64,000 nt of DNA from a virus, in the IMG/VR virus record IMGVR_UViG_3300021961_000040, positions 44,075-108,074 of that record. One strand, given 5' to 3'. The position numbers and the translations under genes were made by a program. Of the stretch, positions 11,999 through 60,174 are shown in pieces (positions within the stretch are counted from its first letter, which is position 1; each line of letters opens with the position of its first letter). Below the pieces are notes generated by a model, which searched no databases, had not been told where the DNA came from, and saw only the letters and a list, made by a program, of their open reading frames with translations.

Positions 11999-12385
11999 TT
12001 GAAAAAAAATAAACCAGTTCTAGAAACACTTACTGGAAGCAGTGATGATACATCTACCATAGAAGAATTAGAAAAAAGCTTTGAGTCAATTGAAGAACTT
12101 AAAGTAAATGCTGAAGATGTAGAAGAAATGTTGCAAAAGTTACTTGATACAGACTGGGATGATGATATTGTAAATGAAATGGCCGGCCCGGCCTATATGC
12201 TCTCTTTGTCAAAGGATATAGAATACTTCTATAGCATTAATAGAAAGACGTTTGTACCAGTTAAAAATAATATTGAAGTAATTCCTGTGAGTATTGATCA
12301 AAATACTACCTCTAATTATTTTGCAATTAATAATGAAATATTTAGCATTGATTCTAGCAAAGTTATTTGTATTGGTTGGAACTAA
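11999..12385 (+). CDS. hypothetical acidic protein
   Basis: 128 residues from TTG 11999, with AAGGA nearby. A longer upstream reading in this frame is a shadow of the 11830 gene. Acidic helical middle (SIEELKVNAEDVEEML), then beta-rich tail. No family recognised. Confidence 0.55.
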   Translation: MKKNKPVLETLTGSSDDTSTIEELEKSFESIEELKVNAEDVEEMLQKLLDTDWDDDIVNEMAGPAYMLSLSKDIEYFYSINRKTFVPVKNNIEVIPVSIDQNTTSNYFAINNEIFSIDSSKVICIGWN

Positions 12386-12723
12386 TGAAACTTGATCATG
12401 TCGCAGTAATTTCAACAGACATTGACGAGTCTGTTAAGTGGTATAAGAAAATGTGGGACGACGCAAAAGTCTTGTACCAGGATAATACGTGGGCGTTTTT
12501 AGAGTCTGAAGATTCTAAAATTGCTTTTGTTACTCCTAAACAACACCCATCTCATGTTGCTTTTAGAGTAGAAAGTAAAGAGCAAGAAGATTTTTTAAAT
12601 ACAATGTTTCCTAATCACGGGTGGAAGCTTCATAGAGATGGTTCAAAGTCTTTTTATGCCAAAGACCCTTCTGGTAATTTTGTTGAGTTTATAAAATATG
12701 AAGAAATTAAAAAAGAAAATTAA
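12385..12723 (+). CDS. VOC/glyoxalase-fold protein
   Basis: 112 residues. MKLDHVAVISTDIDESVKWY, HPSHVAFRVESKEQ and KSFYAKDPSGNFVEFIKYE give the paired beta-alpha-beta-beta-beta units of the vicinal oxygen chelate superfamily with His/Glu ligand positions. The substrate is unknown. Starts in TAATG overlap. Confidence 0.8.
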   Translation: MKLDHVAVISTDIDESVKWYKKMWDDAKVLYQDNTWAFLESEDSKIAFVTPKQHPSHVAFRVESKEQEDFLNTMFPNHGWKLHRDGSKSFYAKDPSGNFVEFIKYEEIKKEN

Positions 12724-12898
12724 AGACTTTGTTTACGTGGTCAACTATCCAGCAGGTGTAGATGAACAATGGGATAAGGAGGCTATTGAAAGCTTTAATA
12801 AGCTTTTAGATAGCTCAAATTTGATATTGCTTATTGTGATTTTTGGAATACCCGTAGGAAGCTTTCTTACACTATTGATACAAAATTATGGGAAATAA
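12698..12898 (+). CDS. small single-span membrane protein
   Basis: 66 residues; charged N-terminus, then LILLIVIFGIPVGSFLTLLI. Overlaps its neighbours on both sides. No family recognised. Confidence 0.45.
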   Translation: MKKLKKKIKDFVYVVNYPAGVDEQWDKEAIESFNKLLDSSNLILLIVIFGIPVGSFLTLLIQNYGK

Positions 12899-13127
12899 AT
12901 CAAGCCTATTTGAATACTTATTTATAATTGCGATTATAGTGCCTATTGTGTATTATCAAGTTATTAAGTTAGCAATTAAATCTGAGTTTTTATATGACAG
13001 AATTAGAAATAATAAAGCTTCTTCTAGAAGAGCTGGAAGGACAAGCTACACACTTAAGGGTATCAAGAGGTTACGGTGTTGGGCATCCTCACTGGGAAGA
13101 AAGAGCTGGAAAGCAGATGTTGGGTGA
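12888..13127 (+). CDS. small membrane protein overlapping 12994 gene
   Basis: 79 residues; the first ~40 are a plausible membrane protein (LFEYLFIIAIIVPIVYYQV). The rest is Arg/Ser/Trp-rich and lies in another frame of the 12994 gene, so the C-terminus may be off-frame because of a lost stop or frameshift. Confidence 0.35.
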   Translation: MGNKSSLFEYLFIIAIIVPIVYYQVIKLAIKSEFLYDRIRNNKASSRRAGRTSYTLKGIKRLRCWASSLGRKSWKADVG

Positions 13128-17627: not shown

Positions 17628-18441
17628 AACTGTTGAAATTACAGATGTAGAAACTTTACAGGTGCTTTCACATCCAGTTGTTCAAAATGCTTTTCGGAGC
17701 GGCGGATGGATAGCGGGAGGTTTTCCTCGATTGGTTGGACGAACAATTCTAAGACCACATCGTCTTGATAGTATTTCATCTAACAAGTCAAAACTCTTTC
17801 AATTTTATTTTCAAAATAGAGGAGACATAGACTTCTTTTTTCGTAATCATGATGATTTTGCAAGTGCTGTGACGAAAGGAGCTTATCATCAGTCTGCTTT
17901 TGCACATAACATGTGGCTTCATAATCGCGAAGGCGTCTTATCACTTAAAGTACAGCTGGTAAATAAATTTTACTATGACACTATTAAACAAACATTCGAT
18001 TCTTTTGATTTTTTAAATTCTTGTTACGCAATTGTACAAATTAATCGAAAATATTATCTCACATACGATGAAGCCGCTAACGATGCAGATATTGCAAAAG
18101 AGCTTGTCATTAAACATGCAAATTCTCCGTATACTCTTCAAAGAATAGTCAAATATCTTAATGACCGAGGACTAGAAAAAGTCTCAAAAAGTTCTTCAAA
18201 AAATCTTGAAGAACTTTTGATAAGATCTGCTTCTAAAATTTTTGATAAAAAGTATTCTTTTAGTTTAGCTGAACCTTATATTAAAAAGTCAATAGATTTT
18301 ATTTTCACGTCAGGGTTGGTTAGTCCTGAAAATGCTATCTACTTTATCGGTAAATATAGTAAAGTCATTAAACAAAAATATGGACCATCAATTATGTCAG
18401 ACTGGGCTTCAGACATAATTGAAAAGAGTGCAACTTGCTAA
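17611..18441 (+). CDS. nucleotidyltransferase-like protein
   Basis: 276 residues. WIAGGFPRLVG followed by GDIDFFFRN is the G-G...D-x-D core of a minimal nucleotidyltransferase; the rest is helical. The substrate is unknown. Overlaps the lipoprotein gene by 17 bases. Confidence 0.6.
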   Translation: MQSDFKTVEITDVETLQVLSHPVVQNAFRSGGWIAGGFPRLVGRTILRPHRLDSISSNKSKLFQFYFQNRGDIDFFFRNHDDFASAVTKGAYHQSAFAHNMWLHNREGVLSLKVQLVNKFYYDTIKQTFDSFDFLNSCYAIVQINRKYYLTYDEAANDADIAKELVIKHANSPYTLQRIVKYLNDRGLEKVSKSSSKNLEELLIRSASKIFDKKYSFSLAEPYIKKSIDFIFTSGLVSPENAIYFIGKYSKVIKQKYGPSIMSDWASDIIEKSATC

Positions 18442-18456
18442 AAAAAGATATATGAT
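18428..18456 (+). promoter_or_regulatory. phage promoter
   Basis: GTGCAA 18428-18433, 17 bases, TATGAT 18451-18456, inside the end of the previous gene; drives 18479. Confidence 0.65.
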
Positions 18457-18478
18457 ATAAATAAAGAAGGAGTATACT

Positions 18479-18844
18479 TTGATTAAAAAGACAAAAGTTT
18501 GCATTCATTGTGAAATTGAATTCGATCTTAATTCTACTGCAAAGAAGTATGCTGGAGGAAAGATTAATGAATGCCCGGATTGCGTTGAAGAGCTAGGAAC
18601 AGAAACAGCAGTTAAGTATCTCGGACTCCAGGCCGGAGATGGCAAGGCTAATGCATTAAGCATTGTTGCATTCGAGTCAGATGACGACCGTGAAGCCTAT
18701 TCAAGCGCATGGAAAGCAGTTACGGGGCATCATAAGGGTAAGTCCTGTCAGCTTGGTGGAGTCCAGACTAATATTGGAAATAGACCGATGCGTCATGTTG
18801 CTTATGCCGGCGGAAATGGAAATCACAAAGGCAAAGCTGACTAA
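18479..18844 (+). CDS. zinc-ribbon protein
   Basis: 121 residues from TTG with AAGGAG upstream. CIHCEIEF...CPDC is a zinc ribbon at residues 7-37. A Gly/His/Asn-rich tail (TGHHKGKS, GGNGNHKGKAD) follows. Function unknown. Confidence 0.6.
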   Translation: MIKKTKVCIHCEIEFDLNSTAKKYAGGKINECPDCVEELGTETAVKYLGLQAGDGKANALSIVAFESDDDREAYSSAWKAVTGHHKGKSCQLGGVQTNIGNRPMRHVAYAGGNGNHKGKAD

Positions 18845-18901
18845 TCAATAAAAAGTCTCCTGATTCTATAATTACTATTAATAGATCAGGTAAAAATAAA
18901 A

Positions 18902-19717
18902 ATGAAAAAAATATTTGAAGATTGGAGAAGCTTTCTTTTAGAAAGAAAAACAGACGTTCTTTATGAAAAGATTGCAGACTATTTTTATAGTTTGTTACAA
19001 GAACATGAAAAATACTTTTGGAAATTTACAGATAATTCTCAAGATTATTTTGAACTTGCTTTGAAAAATCGTGTCATAACTAAAGAAGAATTTGCAAGAT
19101 ACCAAAAATTAACTGGTGATGACACAGTTATGTCAACATATACAGACTTTTATGTTGCAATGTCTAAGTTTGGAGTAAAAGCAACAAATCAAAACGTTCG
19201 TCCAGGAGCAGCAGCTGATATGTCTAATAAAGGCAAAATGAGAATCTTTGTTAGTAGTCAGCCAAAAACTGTTTCTTCTTTTGTTCAAAATATACATCCT
19301 TTAACTTTTAGACATGAAATAGCGCATTGGCTAAATTCAATAAGAAGCGGCTTTAAAAAATATCGTTCTAAAGGTGTTGGAAAAAGTACTTCAAAATCAT
19401 TTAATCCAAGAGAAGCTTACTATTACGCTAATAGCACAGAAGAGATACAAGCAAGAGCTGCAGAAGTTTTTAATATAATTAAAAAAGCAGTTTTTCGTCA
19501 AGTACCTGAAAATTCACAATTTCCAGACGATCTTATTGCAAAAGATTTTCAAAATTCTTTGCGCGAAAGAAAACCTAAGATGTTTGTCAAGCATGCTATA
19601 GAAAATTACGCCTACGATTACTTTTTCTACCATCTTTTAACAGAAAAAAATAAAAGAAGGCTAATAAAAAGATTTTATGAGATGTATAATCACCTTGTAG
19701 AAAAAGAAAATCTATAA
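18902..19717 (+). CDS. putative zinc metalloprotease with W-type N-terminal peptide
   Basis: 271 residues. N-terminus MKKIFEDWRSFLLERK is an amphipathic helix of the kind found on packaged T4-like head proteins. FRHEIAHWLNS gives an HExxH zinc motif near residue 140; the rest is helical. Cytoplasmic or packaged, as no signal peptide is seen. The substrate is unknown. Confidence 0.65.
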   Translation: MKKIFEDWRSFLLERKTDVLYEKIADYFYSLLQEHEKYFWKFTDNSQDYFELALKNRVITKEEFARYQKLTGDDTVMSTYTDFYVAMSKFGVKATNQNVRPGAAADMSNKGKMRIFVSSQPKTVSSFVQNIHPLTFRHEIAHWLNSIRSGFKKYRSKGVGKSTSKSFNPREAYYYANSTEEIQARAAEVFNIIKKAVFRQVPENSQFPDDLIAKDFQNSLRERKPKMFVKHAIENYAYDYFFYHLLTEKNKRRLIKRFYEMYNHLVEKENL

Positions 19718-19729
19718 AGGAAAAATCAG

Positions 19730-19921
19730 ATCAAAACTCTTAAAAAAGTTATTTTGTGGAGAATTTTATCAATTGCTTTAACTTATTTTGTAACTTACGC
19801 TTATACAGGTGATATAAAGTCTGCAACTGGATTCACAGCTATTTTACATTTAGTTTTAATGGCTGCTAATTATATATTCGAGATTTGTTGGGAAAATACT
19901 ATAGGCTCACAGAAAGAATAG
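19730..19921 (+). CDS. DUF2061-like small membrane protein, non-standard start
   Basis: 63 residues if started at ATC 19730: KTLKKVILWRILSIALTYF, TGDIKSATGFTA and YIFEICWENTIG follow the DUF2061 pattern. No ATG or GTG exists in frame; AAAGG lies 9 bases before ATC, and TTG 19754 is the only usual alternative. Its end overlaps the convergent 19899 gene. Confidence 0.5.
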   Translation: MKTLKKVILWRILSIALTYFVTYAYTGDIKSATGFTAILHLVLMAANYIFEICWENTIGSQKE

Positions 19922-20513
19922 TTTTTATGTAAGTTTCATAATCTACAAGATAAAAATCTTCTCCTATTTGCATCCATTCTGGATGCATGATGTGTCCTCT
20001 GATGTGTATATGACTCCAACCAAGAGCATGTCCTAACTCATGCTCTAAAGAAAGTCTTTTTTCTAAAACAAATTCCTTACAAATAACATCAGCATTTAAT
20101 ATTTCATAGGAATCAAATTTTGTGGCAGTTATAGTAACTGCAATTTTATTTTCTAAAATTTCTGCTTCGTTAGATCTTGGAAGTCTAATTCTAATGCTGT
20201 TAAAAAAAGGAGATTGTGCCATACACTCTCTAAATAAGTCTCCTTTTCTAACTTCTCCGAATTCATATCCGAGTTTTTCCCAAAACAACAAGACACTTCT
20301 TATTTCTTCTGTTGTAGCAATTTCGTCACAGATAATAATACTAGGATAAGATTGCTTAGGCCAGTAAGCTAATAAATTATTCTTCTTGATAAACTTTGAT
20401 TCTTCAGTATCAATAATAGAAGTTGGATTATTTTTTAACTGATCAAAGTTTTTTTCTTCGAGATTACAACTAGAAATGCAGAATAAAATAATAAAAAATC
20501 GTAAAATGTTCAT
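19899..20513 (-). CDS. matrixin-like metalloprotease lipoprotein
   Basis: 204 residues on the minus strand. Signal MNILRFFIILFCISSC with lipobox Cys. Zinc motif HELGHALGWSH (HExxHxxGxxH) and Met-turn GHIMHPEW identify a metzincin. It would be lipid-anchored at the cell surface or periplasm. A second secreted matrixin is at 28277. Confidence 0.85.
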   Translation of the reverse strand: MNILRFFIILFCISSCNLEEKNFDQLKNNPTSIIDTEESKFIKKNNLLAYWPKQSYPSIIICDEIATTEEIRSVLLFWEKLGYEFGEVRKGDLFRECMAQSPFFNSIRIRLPRSNEAEILENKIAVTITATKFDSYEILNADVICKEFVLEKRLSLEHELGHALGWSHIHIRGHIMHPEWMQIGEDFYLVDYETYIKTILSVSL

Positions 20514-29485: not shown

Positions 29486-30018
29486 GTTATTTTTTTATTG
29501 ATGTAGAAGCAGACGGCCCTTGTCCAGGACTCTATTCAATGGTGAGTTTTGGAGCCGTTAAGTTTGATGATGATCTTAAGACCACGTTTTACGGAAGAAC
29601 ACGGCCAATTACAAATAATTACAAGCTAGAAGCTCTTCAAATCTCTTGCCCGGATCGAGAAACACATCTTAGTTATGATAATCCAGTCGAAGTAATGAAA
29701 GAGTTTAACCAATGGGTACTTGACAACAATACGGGCTCTCGTCCTATTTTTATGTCTGATAATCCTGCTTTTGACTGGCAGTGGATCAACTATTATTTTC
29801 ATCTAGCAGTGGGTAGTAATCCTTTTGGATACTCAGCACGACGCATCGGTGATGTTTATTGCGGAGCAATGGGAAATATGAGAGCAAAGTGGAAGCACCT
29901 TCGAAAGACTCCACATGATCATAATCCGGTCAATGACGCAAAAGGAAATGCTGAGGCGTTTCGCGTGATGCAAGAGTTGATGCGCGAAGTGAAGCAACTT
30001 CGAAAAAACAACATGTAA
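29482..30018 (+). CDS. DEDD 3'-5' exonuclease
   Basis: 178 residues. FFIDVEADGP (ExoI), SDNPAFDWQWINYYF (ExoII), HNPVNDAKGNAEAF (ExoIII) fit a DEDDh exonuclease of the RNase T-like type found in phages. DNA or RNA substrate unclear. Confidence 0.85.
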   Translation: MSYFFIDVEADGPCPGLYSMVSFGAVKFDDDLKTTFYGRTRPITNNYKLEALQISCPDRETHLSYDNPVEVMKEFNQWVLDNNTGSRPIFMSDNPAFDWQWINYYFHLAVGSNPFGYSARRIGDVYCGAMGNMRAKWKHLRKTPHDHNPVNDAKGNAEAFRVMQELMREVKQLRKNNM

Positions 30019-30026
30019 ATATTTGT

Positions 30027-30055
30027 GTGTAAATTTTACATCAATAAAGTAAAAT
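30027..30055 (+). promoter_or_regulatory. phage promoter
   Basis: GTGTAA 30027-30032, 17 bases, TAAAAT 30050-30055; drives the topoisomerase genes. Confidence 0.8.
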
Positions 30056-30084
30056 ATAATTGTACTTTCACACACTAAGGAATT

Positions 30085-31842
30085 ATGTCTGATTTACTCA
30101 AATACAAAAAGCTGACTGACATTGAGCATGTCTTACTTCGGCCAGGAATGTACGTGGGTTCTATCAAGCATAGGACTGACGATATTTCTATTTACAATGA
30201 AGGCCGATTTAAAACTGAAAGTGTCACTTATAACCCGGCATTTTTAAAGATTTTTGATGAGATTGTATCTAACTCTGTTGATGAACACAGGAGAAATCCA
30301 CACAAGCTAAACCAACTTAATGTACTTGTCAATCCTGAAAAAGGTGCAATCCTAGTTAAAGATAACGGTGGTATTATCGTTGATAAGCATCCTGAGCATA
30401 ACGAGTGGATTCCAGAGCTTATTTTTAGCAATCTCAAAGCAGGATCAAACTTTGATGACACTGAAGAGCGTCTTGTTGCTGGAACAAATGGCGTAGGCTC
30501 GACGCTTACTAATATTTTCTCAAGAGTCTTTCGCGTAAAGACATGTGACGGCAAGAAGCAGTTTTCGCAAAAGTTTGTCGATAATATGACAGACCGCGAA
30601 GAACCAGAAGTTGTGAAGGCAACGTCTCCTAAAGGTTTTACAGAAATTGCTTTTATGCCTGATTTTGAACGCTTTGAGATGGAGACAATTGACGAAGATC
30701 ATATGATGATGCTCCAGAAGCGTGTCATTGATCTAGCAGCTTGCAATCCTAAATTAAAAGTTTCATTTAATAACGAAGATCACACTTTCAAATCTTTTGA
30801 AGAATACTGCAAGCTCTATGTAGAAGATGTAATCTATGTTGAAGGCAGTCGATGGAAAATTGGTATGGCACCTTCTAACGGTTCAATGCAACAAGTAAGC
30901 TTTGTTAATTCTGTTGAAACCTCAGATGGAGGCACACATGTTGATTATATTGCAAATCAGATTGTAACACATCTTCGTGCACTAATTAAAAAGAAGCACA
31001 AGATTGATGTCCGCCCTCAGGAAATCAAGAATCACTTGTTTTTGTTTGTGCAGGCTGATATTGTCAATCCTATCTTTTCTTCACAGACTAAAGAAAAACT
31101 TATTACTGAGCCTAAGCAATTCGGATCGTCTTTTGAGTTTTCACCGGCTACGATTAAGAAGATTGCTTCTTCTGAAGTAGTTGAAAGAATCCTAGACTGG
31201 GCACAGCAAAAAGCAATTGCTGAAGAGAAGAAAGAGCTTAGAAATCTTAATAAAAACTTAAGCAAATCAAAGATTCTTAAGTTAATTGATGCAAAAGCAA
31301 GAACCCAGCGTCAAGACTGTTCACTTGCCATCTTTGAGGGAGATTGCTTAGAAGAAAATACTTCTATTTTTGCACTTAGAGAAACAGATGAAGAAATGTT
31401 TCGATCAATTAAAGATGTTGAAGTTGACGATTATGTTTTGACTCATAAAAATCGATTCAAGAGAGTTGTTGCCAAGACTTCAAAAATTGCAAAGTCGATA
31501 ACTATCAAGACAAAAAAAGGCAATGTAGAATCATCAGAAAATCACAGATTGTGGGTTTACGATACAGAGCTTAAAGAATTCTGTTTTGTAAAGTCTTCTA
31601 GCTTGATTCCAGGAAAGCACAAGCTTGTCAAGTCGAAACTAGCAAACAGCCCTGTGTTTTTAAAAATTTCTGAAGTTAGAAAATGCAAAGATTGTATTGT
31701 GATCAAAACAGAAGACGGAATTGTTACTTCTTCTTATGCACATAAATTTCTTGTTTTTTCAATAGAAGATCAAAACTTCATTCTTAAGCTTGCTGAGGAG
31801 ATAAATGGAGAAATTCATCTCTTAGTCTTGAATTCTAATTAG
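30085..31842 (+). CDS. topoisomerase II large subunit, N-terminal half fused to split N-intein
   Basis: 585 residues. Residues 1-420 are GyrB/T4 gp39-like: HVLLRPGMYVGS, EIVSNSVDEH (Bergerat N box), VKDNGGI, GTNGVGSTLTNIFS, a transducer domain, ending at AIFEGD. Residue 421 is Cys of CLEENTSIF, the first intein residue; block B is ESSENHRLWVY. The N-intein (165 residues) ends in a stop, with no endonuclease fused. The C-intein and the rest of the subunit are at 32941. Trans-splicing would restore EGD-SASS, the conserved TOPRIM EGDSA site. Confidence 0.92.
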   Translation: MSDLLKYKKLTDIEHVLLRPGMYVGSIKHRTDDISIYNEGRFKTESVTYNPAFLKIFDEIVSNSVDEHRRNPHKLNQLNVLVNPEKGAILVKDNGGIIVDKHPEHNEWIPELIFSNLKAGSNFDDTEERLVAGTNGVGSTLTNIFSRVFRVKTCDGKKQFSQKFVDNMTDREEPEVVKATSPKGFTEIAFMPDFERFEMETIDEDHMMMLQKRVIDLAACNPKLKVSFNNEDHTFKSFEEYCKLYVEDVIYVEGSRWKIGMAPSNGSMQQVSFVNSVETSDGGTHVDYIANQIVTHLRALIKKKHKIDVRPQEIKNHLFLFVQADIVNPIFSSQTKEKLITEPKQFGSSFEFSPATIKKIASSEVVERILDWAQQKAIAEEKKELRNLNKNLSKSKILKLIDAKARTQRQDCSLAIFEGDCLEENTSIFALRETDEEMFRSIKDVEVDDYVLTHKNRFKRVVAKTSKIAKSITIKTKKGNVESSENHRLWVYDTELKEFCFVKSSSLIPGKHKLVKSKLANSPVFLKISEVRKCKDCIVIKTEDGIVTSSYAHKFLVFSIEDQNFILKLAEEINGEIHLLVLNSN

Positions 31843-31869
31843 CACCTCCCACAAAAGTAGAGAAGTCTC

Positions 31870-31900
31870 CCTCCAAGATAGATAATTATCTAAAAGGAGG
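31870..31900 (+). promoter_or_regulatory. hairpin hiding the homing-endonuclease ribosome site
   Basis: CCTCC (31870-31874) can pair with the GGAGG ribosome site (31896-31900); between them TAGATAATTATCTA is a perfect palindrome extending the stem. ATG follows at 31905. Homing endonuclease mRNAs in T-even phages use similar sequestration. Confidence 0.65.
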
Positions 31901-31904
31901 CAGT

Positions 31905-32948
31905 ATGTTTATCAGCGTATTTGAAGATTTTAAAAGCTTGGGCAAAATTGAAGTCAAAACAAAAAAACTTGATAAGAAAATTATCGAGATATCAATGAGA
32001 AAAAAATTAAACAAACATTATGACTTTCAACTATTTGAAGATTTTTTTCAAAAAAATAATTTGAAAGTTCCAATATGCAATATTTGTAAATCTCATCACG
32101 TTCCCTATAGTTTTAAAATAACGATTGAATCTGGATTGATTAAAATTCTAGGCGTCAATCTACTTAAGAAATATCAATATTGTTACGCAAAAAGTGATCA
32201 CTGTGCAAAACTAAGTGCAGGAAGAAAAATGAATCCAAATTCAGCCAAGTTTATTTCACTTGTAACGGGAGTAAGCGAGACAGAAGCGAAGCAATATATT
32301 AGAAACAACAATAAAAGTACTTTTTACAGAGAGAATTTTAACTCATACGAAGAGTATAAAAACGCTCAGAAGCGTGATTTGAAATACTTTGTTTCTAAGT
32401 ACGGAGACAAAGAAGGGCAAGAAAAGTATAAAAGTGCAATCAGGAAACAAAATTATAAAAGATCAAAAGAATTTTATATAAAAAAATTTGGCCCTTTGAA
32501 GGGTATTGAAAAATTTCTTAAGTACAATAGGGCGAGAACGAACAAATTTAGAGGTACGTCAAAGTGGTCACTTAAACTTATCAATCGTGTTTTGGCAAAT
32601 GTTGACAAAGAATCATTTGACAAGATTATGTTTGGTAATAAGGAATATTCTTATACAGATGTCTCATGTAAAAAAACATATTTTTGTGACTTCTACATAG
32701 AAAAAGATGGCAAAACAAAAGTAGTAGAATTTAATGGTCATGCTTGGCATGCTCCGCCTAATTTGTCTGAATCTGAGAAACTTCAATGGAAGCCTGCAAG
32801 AGGAAATAGATCGTGGGCAGATGTGCATAAAGGTGATATAAGAAAGTATAATACTTTAAGATGCGCTGACTTTGAAGTCCTGGTCGTTTGGGACTTCGAA
32901 GATGAAGAACAAATAGTAGAAAAAATTTTGGATTTTTTGAATGATTGA
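31905..32948 (+). CDS. free-standing homing endonuclease, Vsr/EDxHD-like
   Basis: 347 residues between the intein halves. N-terminal CNICKSHH is zinc-finger-like; repeats such as FVSKYGDKEGQEKYKSA and FYIKKFGPLKGIEKF suggest DNA-binding modules. The C-terminal ~100 residues (FCDFYIEKDGKTKVVEFNGHAWHA, then HKGDIRKYNTLRCADFEVLVVW) resemble the Vsr-like nuclease fold. This gene order matches the fractured-gene split-intein arrangement reported from marine metagenomes. Stop overlaps the next ATG. Confidence 0.8.
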   Translation: MFISVFEDFKSLGKIEVKTKKLDKKIIEISMRKKLNKHYDFQLFEDFFQKNNLKVPICNICKSHHVPYSFKITIESGLIKILGVNLLKKYQYCYAKSDHCAKLSAGRKMNPNSAKFISLVTGVSETEAKQYIRNNNKSTFYRENFNSYEEYKNAQKRDLKYFVSKYGDKEGQEKYKSAIRKQNYKRSKEFYIKKFGPLKGIEKFLKYNRARTNKFRGTSKWSLKLINRVLANVDKESFDKIMFGNKEYSYTDVSCKKTYFCDFYIEKDGKTKVVEFNGHAWHAPPNLSESEKLQWKPARGNRSWADVHKGDIRKYNTLRCADFEVLVVWDFEDEEQIVEKILDFLND

Positions 32949-33708
32949 CATTGTTGAAAACTTTTTAGAGTTAGTTGAGATTGATGATCTTATTAAGACT
33001 GACGAATACAAAAACATGATTGACATTACTGTGGAAGATGATGAGACCTTTGTTTTAGAAAACGGAATTGTATCTCACAATTCAGCATCTTCTGCATTCC
33101 GAAAATATCGCAATCCTAACCTCCAAGGTGCATTTCCACTCCGAGGAAAATTTATCAACGTGTCAGGATTGAGCCCACTTAAAGTAGTTAAAAACAAAGA
33201 GGTGACTTCTCTTCTTGGCGCAATCGGATTAAAACTGGGTGAAGAAGCAAAAAATCTACAGTATGGAAAAATTCTAATCTATTCAGACGCAGATCCTGAT
33301 GGTGACTCTATTGCAGGTTTGCTCATTAACTTTTTTGGTCGCTATTGGCCTGAAATGTTTGAGCAAGGGATAATTTGTCGTGTAATCACGCCAATTGTTG
33401 TTGCAAAGAAAGGCAAGCAGAAGAAATCTTTCTATACAAACGAAGAGTTTGATGAATGGGTGTCTGATCGTAGTAAAATTAAAGGCTGGGAAATTGAATA
33501 CAAGAAGGGTCTTGCCGCGCTTGAAGATGAAGAATACAAAGAAATCATTCAAGATCCTAAAATGTTTGTGATCGAGAAAGGCGATAACTTTCATGCCACT
33601 CTAAATCACTGGTTCTCAAAGAACCCTATACACAGAAAAATGAAGATTCTTGGTCGAGACTTAAGTGATCAAGAAGTAGATGAAACTAACGACGAAGAGG
33701 ATGAATAA
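32941..33708 (+). CDS. split C-intein fused to topoisomerase II large subunit C-terminal half
   Basis: 255 residues. Residues 1-47 are a C-intein ending in DDETFVLENGIVSHN, with S48 as the +1 nucleophile. Residues 48-255 continue the subunit: SASSAFRKYRNPNLQ, PLRGKFINVSG and the TOPRIM acidic motif YSDADPDGDSIAGLL. Exteins total ~628 residues, near T4 gp39 plus gp60. Confidence 0.92.
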   Translation: MIDIVENFLELVEIDDLIKTDEYKNMIDITVEDDETFVLENGIVSHNSASSAFRKYRNPNLQGAFPLRGKFINVSGLSPLKVVKNKEVTSLLGAIGLKLGEEAKNLQYGKILIYSDADPDGDSIAGLLINFFGRYWPEMFEQGIICRVITPIVVAKKGKQKKSFYTNEEFDEWVSDRSKIKGWEIEYKKGLAALEDEEYKEIIQDPKMFVIEKGDNFHATLNHWFSKNPIHRKMKILGRDLSDQEVDETNDEEDE

Positions 33709-33998
33709 TGGGAAGTAGCGTCCCTGCAAAAGGACAAGTAAAGTTTGATGAAGTTGTAGTAACTTTTAAAAGAGAACATGACGGATCTTACACGAAACAA
33801 ACAAAACGTCTCACACGAGATCGACAGACTAGCGCTGTAAATTATTACAAAAAGAACAATCCGATAATTGAAGAAGGTCCTTATGTAGCTGTCATATCAG
33901 GTGAAGACTACGACGAAATAATGTCTTTTGAAGGTATAAATGGCGAAACAGTCAACATGTACTTTAAAAAGATTGAAGTAGAAGGGATCGAAGAATGA
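33708..33998 (+). CDS. hypothetical protein
   Basis: 96 residues, TAATG-coupled to the topoisomerase half. Beta-rich (KFDEVVVTFKREHDGSY). No family recognised. Confidence 0.5.
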   Translation: MGSSVPAKGQVKFDEVVVTFKREHDGSYTKQTKRLTRDRQTSAVNYYKKNNPIIEEGPYVAVISGEDYDEIMSFEGINGETVNMYFKKIEVEGIEE

Positions 33999-34156
33999 AG
34001 ATTCTCATTGAGGTAGAAATCAACATTAATCTTGAAACAAGCGAATGGACAGAAGAAAGTCTTTTTGAAGTTTTGAATGACCAGCTTCTTAATATCGATT
34101 TGCTCGAAGAAGATGAGTACGTTAGTAATGTTACTCTACTGAAGAACGAAGAATGA
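33995..34156 (+). CDS. small hypothetical protein
   Basis: 53 residues (MKILIEVEININ start, LLKNEE end), ATGA-coupled on both sides through the shared junction. No family recognised. Confidence 0.45.
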   Translation: MKILIEVEININLETSEWTEESLFEVLNDQLLNIDLLEEDEYVSNVTLLKNEE

Positions 34157-34260
34157 ACAATCAAAAGTTTTTGTTCAATACTGTCATTGTGGCAATAACT
34201 GATTTTTCTGTAGGTTACGTTTTTGGACGCTGGATTATACATTCTTTACCTGCATTTTAG
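34153..34260 (+). CDS. 35-residue membrane peptide
   Basis: MNNQKFLFNTVIVAIT then GYVFGRWIIHSLPAF; one hydrophobic span. ATGA start. Conservation is unknown. Confidence 0.35.
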   Translation: MNNQKFLFNTVIVAITDFSVGYVFGRWIIHSLPAF

Positions 34261-34271
34261 GAGAAGAAAAA

Positions 34272-34436
34272 ATGAAATGGGAAGTTAGACCTCTCGAAGA
34301 CGGTAGCTGGGGAGTTTTTTTAATGCAAAAGTTTTGCAAAACAAAAGAACCGGTTTGTTACGGAAGAGCAACTTTAAAATCAACTGCCGAAAGTGTAGTC
34401 GAAAGAATGAACAATTGGCAGCAGGAATTAGAATAA
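34272..34436 (+). CDS. small hypothetical protein
   Basis: 54 residues with AGGAG before ATG; WEVRPLEDGSWGVFL beta hairpin, helical end. No family recognised. Confidence 0.45.
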   Translation: MKWEVRPLEDGSWGVFLMQKFCKTKEPVCYGRATLKSTAESVVERMNNWQQELE

Positions 34437-35003: not shown

Positions 35004-35210
35004 ATGATAGACATGTTCGATATCAAAGAAGGTGAGCTTATACAAGTTTTAGATAGTAACGGAAGTATTATAGATACAGGAATGTACATTGGTAAAAAGC
35101 GTATTAACAATATACATCACTGGTTAATTTTAAGTGGAAAAGGATATCGAAAACTAGATACATCTTTTCACACTCTTTTAAAACTGGAAGAAACAAATGA
35201 ATGCAGTTAA
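35004..35210 (+). CDS. small hypothetical protein
   Basis: 68 residues; beta-rich (GELIQVLDSNGSIIDTGMYI). Overlaps the gp52-like gene by 14 bases. No family recognised. Confidence 0.45.
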   Translation: MIDMFDIKEGELIQVLDSNGSIIDTGMYIGKKRINNIHHWLILSGKGYRKLDTSFHTLLKLEETNECS

Positions 35211-36537
35211 AAGAAAAGCACAAGACTTTTTCGATACTGAATATCTTGGATATGCGAGATATGTTGTCGAAAATCGCGCCATTCCAAGTCTAGTAGACGG
35301 TTTTAAACCAAGCCAGCGCAAGATTGCTTACGCGGCCAACAAACTCTGGAAGACAGGCAAGGAAAAGCCGATGAAAGTCTTTCAGCTAGGCGGGCAAGCT
35401 GCTGCAATCTCATTCTTCCATCACGGTTCTCTTGACGGAACCATTATCGGAATGACTCAGACATTTAAAAACTCCATGCCTATCTTTCAAGGTGTGGGCC
35501 AGTTTGGCTCACTTAGATCGCCAGAAGCGGGTGCGCCTCGATACATCGGTGTGAAGTTTAACGAGAACTTTCGACGTCTCTACATGGACTTTGGTCTTAC
35601 AACACCGAAGTTTGAGGAAGGACAAGAGATTGAGCCTAAGTACTTCCTCCCGATTGTTCCCACAGTGCTTCTTAATGGTGGTTCAGGGATCGCTGTGGGC
35701 TTCGCAACCAATATTTTGAACCGCAACCCATCTGACATTATTGAAGCCTGCCTGGATCATCTGTCAGACAGGAAGATTAATCGACTCAAACCATGGATTA
35801 ATGGATTTTATGGTACGGTTACTCCTATCCCTGACACACCGAGAAGCTGGATCTTTCACGGAGATTATGAAGTCAAGAACACGTCTACAATAATTATCAA
35901 TGAGATCCCGCCCAGTTGGACGTATGAGAAGTACGAAGCACATCTTGATAACCTTCAGGAAAAAGGTGTTATCACAAGTTATGACGATGAATCTTCCGAC
36001 CGCGTAAAATACACAATCAAATTTCAGAGAGTAAAACTTAAAGAGCTTATGGATAAGAACAAGCTCGTGTCAACTTTAAAACTCGAAGAGCGTCAGACAG
36101 AGAACATTACTACGCTTGACGAAAGAGGCGAGCTTAAGATTTTCGAGACAACTGAAGAATTGCTTGCTTATTTTGTAGACTTTCGGTTGGGTTATTACGT
36201 CAAGCGCAAAGAGTACTTGCTTAACAAGATTGATTGTGATCTATTTATTATCAACAATCGGGTCAAGTTTATTAAGTCTATCATCGACACGAAGCTCGAG
36301 CTGCGTAATAGAAAAAGATCAGATATTGAAAAAGATCTGCCTCTTCTTGATATTCAAAAGCATGAAGAGTCCTATCGGTATCTACTTGACATGTCCGTTC
36401 ACTCACTAACAAAAGAGAAATGGGAAGAGCTTCAAAAGCATGCTGCTGATCTAAAGAAAGAACGCGAGAAAATTGAAAAGACCTCACCTGAAGATTTTTA
36501 TAGAAAAGACTTGAGAGAACTTAAAAAGTTTGTTTGA
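35197..36537 (+). CDS. topoisomerase II medium subunit, T4 gp52-like
   Basis: 446 residues, GyrA/ParC-like breakage-reunion domain: IPSLVDGFKPSQRKI, then catalytic Tyr in GAPRYIG (~Y116), GSGIAVGFATNI, coiled-coil tower at the end. T4 gp52 is 442 residues. Works with the trans-spliced large subunit to relax and decatenate DNA. Confidence 0.95.
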   Translation: MNAVKRKAQDFFDTEYLGYARYVVENRAIPSLVDGFKPSQRKIAYAANKLWKTGKEKPMKVFQLGGQAAAISFFHHGSLDGTIIGMTQTFKNSMPIFQGVGQFGSLRSPEAGAPRYIGVKFNENFRRLYMDFGLTTPKFEEGQEIEPKYFLPIVPTVLLNGGSGIAVGFATNILNRNPSDIIEACLDHLSDRKINRLKPWINGFYGTVTPIPDTPRSWIFHGDYEVKNTSTIIINEIPPSWTYEKYEAHLDNLQEKGVITSYDDESSDRVKYTIKFQRVKLKELMDKNKLVSTLKLEERQTENITTLDERGELKIFETTEELLAYFVDFRLGYYVKRKEYLLNKIDCDLFIINNRVKFIKSIIDTKLELRNRKRSDIEKDLPLLDIQKHEESYRYLLDMSVHSLTKEKWEELQKHAADLKKEREKIEKTSPEDFYRKDLRELKKFV

Positions 36538-53644: not shown

Positions 53645-53928
53645 GCCTCGATAGTTCAATGGATAGAACACCGGCCTTCAAATAGGAGCCTCATATCGGA
53701 AACGATATGTTGCATACACTCTCAAATTCGGGGAAGCCTTTAAAATGGTAATCCCGAGCCAAGCCCGAAAGGGAAGGTGTAGAGACTTGACGGGAGTGGC
53801 CTAAAAGAATCAATTGATTCTCATGGTTGAGAGAAAGTCCAGACCACAAACAACTTCGGTTGGCAGCGAAAGCTGTAGAGGGTACGCTAAGCCGTAGGTT
53901 CCAGGTTCGAGTCCTGGTCGAGGCGCCA
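53645..53928 (+). tRNA. tRNA-Arg(UCU) interrupted by a group I intron
   Basis: 5' exon 53645-53678 (acceptor GCCTCGA, D-arm, anticodon stem CCGGC, CTT); 3' exon 53887-53928 (CTAA, GCCG, T-arm CCAGGTTCGAGTCCTGG, TCGAGGC, G73, CCA). Joined loop CTTCTAA reads UCU. A second UCU tRNA at 54115 is uninterrupted. Confidence 0.9.
53679..53886 (+). mobile_element. group I intron (tRNA anticodon-loop type)
   Basis: 208 bases. The core resembles the IC3-like introns of Azoarcus tRNA-Ile and cyanobacterial tRNA-Leu: AATCCCGAGCCAAG, CCCGAAAGGGAAGGTGTAG, AGAGACTTGACGGGAG, AGAAAGTCCAGACCACAAAC. The 5' exon ends in U and the last intron base is G. No endonuclease ORF inside. Confidence 0.9.
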
Positions 53929-56592: not shown

Positions 56593-57102
56593 ATGACTTA
56601 CGAATACAAGGTCTCTCACCGAGCCGATGGCTCGGTGGAGTTGGAGGAGTTCTTCAAGGAGGGTCTCCGTCACCGGGAGGGTGACCGACCGGCGTGGGTC
56701 CGTTACCGAGCCGATGGCTCGGTGGAGTTGGAGTCGTTCTGGAAGGAGGGTCAGCGTCACCGGGAGGGTGACCGACCGGCTGTGGTCCGTTACCGAGCCG
56801 ATGGCTCGGTGGAGTGGGAGGAGTTCTGGAAGGAGGGCCTCCTTCACCGGGAGGGTGACCTCCCGGCTGTGGTCCGGTATCGAGCCGATGGCACGGTGGC
56901 GTGGGAGTCGTTCTGGAAGGAGGGTCAGCTTCACCGGGAGGGTGACCGACCGGCTGTGGTCCGGTATCGAGCCGATGGCTCGGTGGAGCGGGAGCTGTTC
57001 TACAAGGAGAATCAGACGTACACTCCGAGCAAGGCAAAGCCTTACGAGGGCAAGACCGTGGAGATTGACGGCGTCAAGTACGTCTTGACGCCTGTGGATT
57101 GA
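56593..57102 (+). CDS. MORN-like repeat protein 1
   Basis: 169 residues: short MTYEYKVSH head, five ~29-residue repeats (core RADGSVE, F.KEG, HREGDRPA), C-terminal tail KTVEIDGVKYVLTPVD. Similar to MORN_2/YwqK-type repeats; ligand unknown. GC far above its neighbours. Paralogues at 59665 and 63760 share near-identical DNA. Confidence 0.75.
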   Translation: MTYEYKVSHRADGSVELEEFFKEGLRHREGDRPAWVRYRADGSVELESFWKEGQRHREGDRPAVVRYRADGSVEWEEFWKEGLLHREGDLPAVVRYRADGTVAWESFWKEGQLHREGDRPAVVRYRADGSVERELFYKENQTYTPSKAKPYEGKTVEIDGVKYVLTPVD

Positions 57103-59664: not shown

Positions 59665-60174
59665 ATGACTTACGAATACAAGGTCTCTCACCGAGCCGAT
59701 GGCTCGGTGGCGTCGGAGCAGTTCTACAAGGAGGGTCTCCGTCACCGGGAGGGTGACCGCCCGGCTGTGGTCATGTACCGAGCCGATGGCTCGGTGGAGT
59801 GGGAGGAGTTCTTCAAGGAGGGTCTCCGTCACCGGGAGGGTGACCGACCGGGACGGGTCAGTTACCGATCCGATGGCTCGGTGGAGTGGGAGGAGTTCTG
59901 GAAGGAGGATGAGCTTCACCGGGAGGGTGACCGACCGGCTATGGTCTGGTATCAAACCGATGGCTCGGTGGAGACGGAGGCGTTCTACAAGGAGGGTCAG
60001 TGTCACCGGGAGGGTGACCGACCGGCGTGGGTCCGTTACCAAGCCGATGGCTCGGTGGCGTGGGAGGAGTTCTGGAAGGAGGATGAGCAGTACACTCCAA
60101 GCAAGGCAAAGCCTTGCGAGGGCAAGACCGTGGAGATTGACGGCGTCAAGTATGTCTTGACGCCTGTGGATTGA
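59665..60174 (+). CDS. MORN-like repeat protein 2
   Basis: 169 residues, five ~29-residue repeats and the same head and tail as the 56593 protein; differences cluster at a few positions per repeat (EEF/EQF/EAF, FYKEG/FWKED). Confidence 0.75.
   Translation: MTYEYKVSHRADGSVASEQFYKEGLRHREGDRPAVVMYRADGSVEWEEFFKEGLRHREGDRPGRVSYRSDGSVEWEEFWKEDELHREGDRPAMVWYQTDGSVETEAFYKEGQCHREGDRPAWVRYQADGSVAWEEFWKEDEQYTPSKAKPCEGKTVEIDGVKYVLTPVD

Follow-up and report, generated by a model that had tools for sequence, protein, structure and literature searches.

How does a virus obtain a whole topoisomerase II large subunit from a gene that is broken at a conserved active-site motif? The question is raised by a locus in a 64,000-nucleotide stretch of viral DNA (hereafter the window), which comprises bases 44075-108074 of the 108-kb linear viral record IMGVR_UViG_3300021961_000040. 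Three open reading frames (ORFs) on the plus strand make up this locus; two encode the halves of the subunit, each fused to a piece of an intein, and the third, lying between them, encodes a nuclease. We propose that the halves are very probably joined by trans-splicing of the split intein and, on the sequence evidence set out below, we hold with high confidence that the locus is a large-subunit gene of topoisomerase II that has been fractured, that its product is made whole by protein trans-splicing, and that a homing gene accompanies it.

Two halves of one topoisomerase gene

The N-half (30085-31842) has 585 residues, of which 420 form the N-extein (30085-31344), ending in FEGD, and 165 form the N-terminal piece of the intein (IntN). 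The C-half (32941-33708) has 255 residues, of which 47 form the C-terminal intein piece (IntC; 32941-33081), containing blocks F and G and ending in SHN, and 208 form the C-extein (33082-33708), which carries the rest of the TOPRIM domain and the C-terminal part of the subunit. Together, the halves give an end-to-end match to a single family, the T4-type topoisomerase II large subunit (gp39/GyrB type; PHROG 543), the N-half covering profile positions 27-445 (E 6.9e-123) and the C-half positions 445-651 (E 8.9e-62). The N-extein is also matched by Pfam DNA_gyraseB (E 1.2e-22), and the C-extein by Pfam TOPRIM_C and Toprim. The joint lies in the TOPRIM glutamate motif, EGD/SA; the N-extein ends ...IFEGD at 31344, the intein begins CLEENTSIF at 31345, and on the other side ...ENGIVSHN is followed by SASSAF, with the codon of the +1 Ser at 33082. 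The nuclease gene (31905-32948, 347 residues) occupies the space between the halves. An earlier note on this DNA had described these three ORFs, the EGD/CLEENTSIF and VSHN/+1 S junctions, and a nuclease gene that starts before the C-half and overlaps it with its stop. The ORFs agree to the base, the junctions fall at 31344/31345 and 33081/33082, and the end of the nuclease gene overlaps the start codon of the C-half by 8 bp.

Intact alleles define the insert

Scanning viral contigs with the N-extein revealed an uninterrupted gene in five contigs (L020-L024), whose protein is 81-93% identical, with FEGDSASSAFRKYRNP in the closest. Since all five align to both flanks (blastn, 74-84% identical) and all are without 31345-33081, the split gene is not a chance arrangement. 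The DNA of L020 matches the window from 30001 to 31343 (83.7%) and picks up again at 33082 (82.2%) to continue to 33983, past the end of the gene; the insert is thus 31345-33081, 1737 bp. Judged by these alleles, to which the N-extein is collinear, the exteins on the separate ORFs rejoin to an intact sequence and, beyond the insert, nothing is missing and nothing is duplicated at the joint.

Could the halves instead be joined at the RNA level, the insert being an RNA intron that carries a homing gene? A group I intron does exist elsewhere in the window, at 53668-53860. However, cmscan of 29800-34300 at E up to 1 returned no intron model, the two matches obtained belonging to unrelated families far below their cut-offs. 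The insert is coding save for 62 bp, a noncoding gap too short for a group I or group II intron, and its ends are intein motifs. We regard an intron as vanishingly improbable.

Evidence for protein trans-splicing

Further loci were sought with scans using IntN and IntC alignments, to which the huge-phage record LR756500.1 was added; these searches were aimed at the intein, and the counts obtained are not an estimate of prevalence. The same kind of split intein was found at the same joint in L013, L101/L037, L104, L105, L116, L119, L120, L121/L122, L123/L124, L127, L129/L130, L133 and L156, and after merging exteins at 90% identity 13 distinct complete pairs remain, the window included. The residue before the joint varies in the split genes (EGD, EGL, EGM or EGN), and EGL and EGM are also seen before the joint in intact relatives. 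The residues expected to act in splicing are constant; Cys1 and the block-B His67 (window numbering) are invariant in 13/13 distinct IntN, and SHN with the +1 Ser is kept in all 13 distinct full pairs. IntC, kept in 14 homologues, scores 29.0 bits with NCBIfam TIGR01443 intein_Cterm, for which the curated cut-off is 15.6, and the nearest match of IntN in the PDB is the gp41-1 split intein (6qaz, 6riz; E 1.2e-6). The split-intein reading of the earlier note is thus well supported by the exact empty site, the splicing residues of the 13 homologues, the TIGR01443 match and the similarity to gp41-1. Its comparison of the locus to known fractured genes also holds, the endonuclease gene standing free between the two halves.

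Four split loci, L119, L121, L133 and L156, have no complete homing endonuclease gene (HEG). L119 retains a relic of 58 codons, whose best match is the Vsr-like HEG end of its sister L116 (62%, E 8e-23), and L121 a relic of 66 codons of an HNH-like end, in which the catalytic DH has changed to YH (E 8e-22). L133 and L156 have no trace of a HEG; 4 bp separate the halves in the former, and in the latter there is an overlap of 10 bp. All four keep Cys1, the His, HN and the +1 Ser. Because functionless appendages would not be expected to survive such divergence, the outlasting of HEG loss by the splicing residues suggests that splicing is real and needed, and we consider this retention the strongest indirect evidence for it.

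The same observations bear on a two-piece enzyme that works without splicing, its halves assembling non-covalently around inert intein pieces in the manner of T4 gp39/gp60. The T4 topoisomerase provides a precedent, as an HNH homing-gene insertion breaks the same gene and the products work as separate subunits (PMC2988022). The position of that break is different, however; T4 gp39 runs on uninterrupted through EGDSAIG and ends about 60 residues downstream, with no intein, and the window does not share this type of break. Moreover, the intein catalytic residues are kept across deep divergence and after HEG loss, which would not be expected of inert appendages. Non-covalent assembly is accordingly a highly improbable account of the window, and trans-splicing remains the reading that we prefer.

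An enlarged IntN with a doubled subdomain

IntN and IntC together comprise 212 residues, with no nuclease domain inside. The IntN core (residues 1-98; 31345-31638), defined on the alignment of 13 split homologues, includes Cys1 and block B with His67, and is followed by an additional subdomain (residues 103-165; 31651-31839, the stop codon being 31840-31842), which is a tandem copy of the block-B subdomain. Residues 103-165 repeat residues 38-98, with 30% identity in a pairwise BLAST comparison of the window alone. Comparison of profiles of the two copies, built from the 13 sequences, gave a probability of 98.1% and a score of 63.0, vs at most 14.3 in 60 column-shuffled controls, and the hidden Markov model (HMM) of each copy finds the other, that of the second copy finding the first with E down to 3e-11. 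An AlphaFold2 model of IntN (predicted local distance difference test, pLDDT, 79.5; predicted template modelling score, pTM, 0.38) shows the repeated strand order; in a Foldseek search with this model, Hedgehog Hint domains and gp41-1 were listed, with E above 0.08.

The tandem copy is present in IntN of every member of the topoisomerase split-intein family and, among the loci compared, the doubled arrangement occurs only there; L115 and L197 each contain another intein, in which only one copy is matched. Because the HEG-less members keep the extra subdomain, we infer that it serves the intein rather than homing. It may govern the mutual recognition of the halves, and would then be relevant to intein tools.

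The nuclease gene between the halves

The ATG of the HEG is preceded by an AAGGAGG Shine-Dalgarno sequence (31894-31900), which falls within a predicted hairpin at 31866-31903 (RNA fold -12.9 kcal/mol). The Shine-Dalgarno sequence of the HEG likewise lies within a predicted hairpin in L104 (z-score -7.3) and L105 (z -4.5), the value in the window being weak (z -1.6). In T4, homing endonuclease genes are held back by hairpins that sequester the Shine-Dalgarno sequence (PMC2988022). The possibility of a T4-like late promoter upstream of the HEG was rejected for the window, which lacks the exact TATAAATA; this sequence is present only in L105 and L120.

The window HEG belongs to no family in Pfam or NCBIfam. 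A viral scan with this protein alone found no relative; when the scan was made with an alignment including LR756500 and L037, the matches, in two contigs, were all of the L037 type. Comparison with the sister HEGs divides the window protein, a putative stand-alone homing endonuclease, into two parts. An N-terminal region of about 150-200 residues, with four conserved Cys, is common to all sister HEGs (E ~1e-11 to 1e-35 across nuclease types), and is followed by ends of at least three nuclease types. The ends of the HEGs of the window, L101, L104, L116, L127 and L129 appear Vsr-like, that of the window being putatively of the PD-(D/E)XK type; those of L013, L120 and L123 carry an HNH-like motif (DH...IENL...N..K), assigned by motif reading only; and that of L105 represents a third nuclease type. 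In the seven Vsr-like ends compared, D, E-x-N-G, H and W are conserved without exception.

The earlier note had called the end of the window protein Vsr-like, and this assignment is moderately supported. The nuclease-domain profile gave six PDB matches, including I-Bth0305I (3r3p) and the Vsr entries 1odg, 1vsr and 1cw0, all of them weak (E 0.6-1.2), and the sister HEG of L104 passes the cut-off of Pfam DUF559. A Foldseek search with a low-confidence model of the HEG (mean pLDDT 64.5) returned only insignificant PD-(D/E)XK-like matches.

The weakness of the match to known nuclease families leaves room for a reading in which the intein splices and the middle ORF is either no longer a mobile homing gene or serves a different function, for example as a nuclease of host DNA or as a regulator; the trees described below, in which no recent transfer between distant phages is seen, point the same way. 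We consider this unlikely, since the middle ORF is intact and has a strong Shine-Dalgarno sequence, each of the nine distinct complete loci with a HEG carries the sister ORF inside this insert, and the catalytic-type residues of the Vsr-like ends do not vary. We suggest that the locus probably belongs to a hitherto undescribed, topoisomerase-specific clan of split inteins, in which IntN has a third Hint subdomain that arose by tandem duplication and outlasts HEG loss in all members, and that the homing proteins of this clan are probably modular, combining one conserved EGDSA-targeting region with interchangeable Vsr-like, HNH-like or other domains. Swapped nuclease ends on one targeting region would mean that homing endonucleases can change their chemistry and keep the same address.

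Proposed mechanism and history of the split

We propose the following series of steps. Both halves would be translated, and IntN would associate with IntC. Cys1 would form a thioester, the +1 Ser would attack it, and Asn47 of IntC would cyclise, so that ligation of the exteins yields a subunit of 628 residues (~71 kDa) in which the EGDSA motif is restored. In co-infecting phages, the uninterrupted EGDSA sequence would be the target that the nuclease recognises and cuts, repair would copy the insert in, and the insert would abolish the nuclease's own target. The nuclease gene could decay later; the split intein would have to remain, because by then the topoisomerase depends on it.

Split genes are scattered among intact ones on the extein tree (59 sequences), where at least 8 changes between the split and the intact state are needed, forced by starred branches; this tree was made by a quick method and has some long branches. 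The scatter, like the empty sites, favours homing. The intein tree is mostly weakly supported, yet repeats two extein groupings, L116-L119 and L013/L120/L121/L123. Codon-based selection tests were applied to near-identical pairs, between which there were almost no sequence differences. Much of the distribution could be explained by an old presence followed by many losses, or by homing largely confined to relatives. Weighing against the interpretation proposed here, the groupings shared by the two trees suggest that most of the family may be of old, inherited origin, with losses, and not the outcome of active homing; in addition, the IntN of the window scores too low to be detected by Pfam.

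The loci display, at one conserved active-site joint, the stages of a selfish-gene cycle: empty, split with nuclease, split with a relic, and split without nuclease. This series makes the persistence of the split after nuclease loss directly testable, and it provides more than 12 naturally occurring split inteins, all in one essential enzyme of replication.

Other fractured genes and neighbouring features

Several loci of the family show further rearrangements. In L104 (482-4876) the large subunit is in three pieces, with a second split intein in TOPRIM at DAD/CDG besides that at EGD/SA, and the middle fragment has an IntC at its start and an IntN at its end. The C-half in L127 (1471-3594) and L129 (6001-8151) is fused to a gp52/ParC-type subunit in one ORF of 707-716 residues, and splicing would there yield a single-chain topoisomerase II. 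In L013 (9658-12380; LR756500.1, a 462-kb phage) the gp52-type partner is also fractured, at HHGD/SAL, with its own Vsr-like nuclease gene between the pieces; in the window, the gp52-type partner subunit is encoded downstream at 35197-36537 (PHROG 551). A ribonucleotide reductase gene in L016 (244-4094; LR756504.1) is apparently split by an intein, a Vsr-like nuclease gene following its first half.

The viral record that contains the window holds, outside the window, a DnaE-type polymerase gene fractured by a second split intein (L017; 13078-14664 and ~17950-20000, record coordinates). Its junctions are FLGRHR/CVDPTT... and ...FVLTHN/TSWPDIDSD, and its IntC passes TIGR01443; the halves are separated by 3.3 kb of other small genes, with no recognised homing gene. 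Also outside the window, in L017 11905-13078, a nuclease-like ORF (12014-12940) lies inside the 5' part of dnaE. Both sides of this ORF carry the coding stretch TRFVGLHGHTG, and in the downstream copy two in-frame stops stand between GFS and SVFDG, ahead of the remainder of the gene.

Elsewhere in the window, a tmRNA gene is found at 369-801 (82.5 bits), with a match to a permuted-tmRNA model nearby (188-498), and the group I intron mentioned above (57 bits) seems to lie within a tRNA gene, close to the anticodon loop. Two ORFs of 169 residues (56593-57102 and 59665-60174) are built of near-identical repeats (HREGDRPAVVRYRADGSVE...).

Comparison with known systems

The layout itself, in which a naturally split intein and a homing gene divide a host gene, is already known. 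Dassa et al. 2009 (NAR 37:2560) reportedly described fractured genes in which the host gene is cut by a split intein and a free-standing HEG of the Vsr-like family lies between the halves, and the window shares this layout and may share the nuclease family. To our knowledge, topoisomerase II is not among the hosts listed by Dassa et al. 2009. The IntN described here is much longer than in those systems and has the doubled subdomain, and sister loci have, at this site, nucleases that are HNH-like or of another kind. Our literature search, made in a collection with few subscription papers, found no paper joining intein, phage and topoisomerase II large subunit.

The same three-ORF layout in a replication gene of a large phage is seen in the Pseudomonas jumbo phage MIJ3, which has a split PolB intein with an HNH HEG (PMC6892783); the host gene, the insertion site and the nuclease differ from those of the window. 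The gp41-1 intein, the nearest solved structure to IntN, belongs to a different gene, and its construct has 128 residues vs the 212 of the present intein. The cis-splicing Ssp GyrB intein ends in GVFVHN, followed by SAG (PMC2794532). It is bacterial and contiguous in nature, unlike the split intein of the window. Its C-terminal end fits the homologous GyrB joint, which we take to be its native insertion site. The T4 gene 39/mobA/60 region is a case of this gene being interrupted by insertion of a homing gene, but with another breakpoint, no intein and non-covalent assembly. Finally, I-Bth0305I and Vsr, of the EDxHD family, resemble the nuclease end in weak profile matches and in the agreement of the D, ENG, H and W positions, whereas the N-terminal targeting region differs. 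Set against these systems, the new features are a natural split intein in this host gene and at this site, the subdomain duplication within IntN, and the swapping of nuclease ends on a probable shared targeting region.
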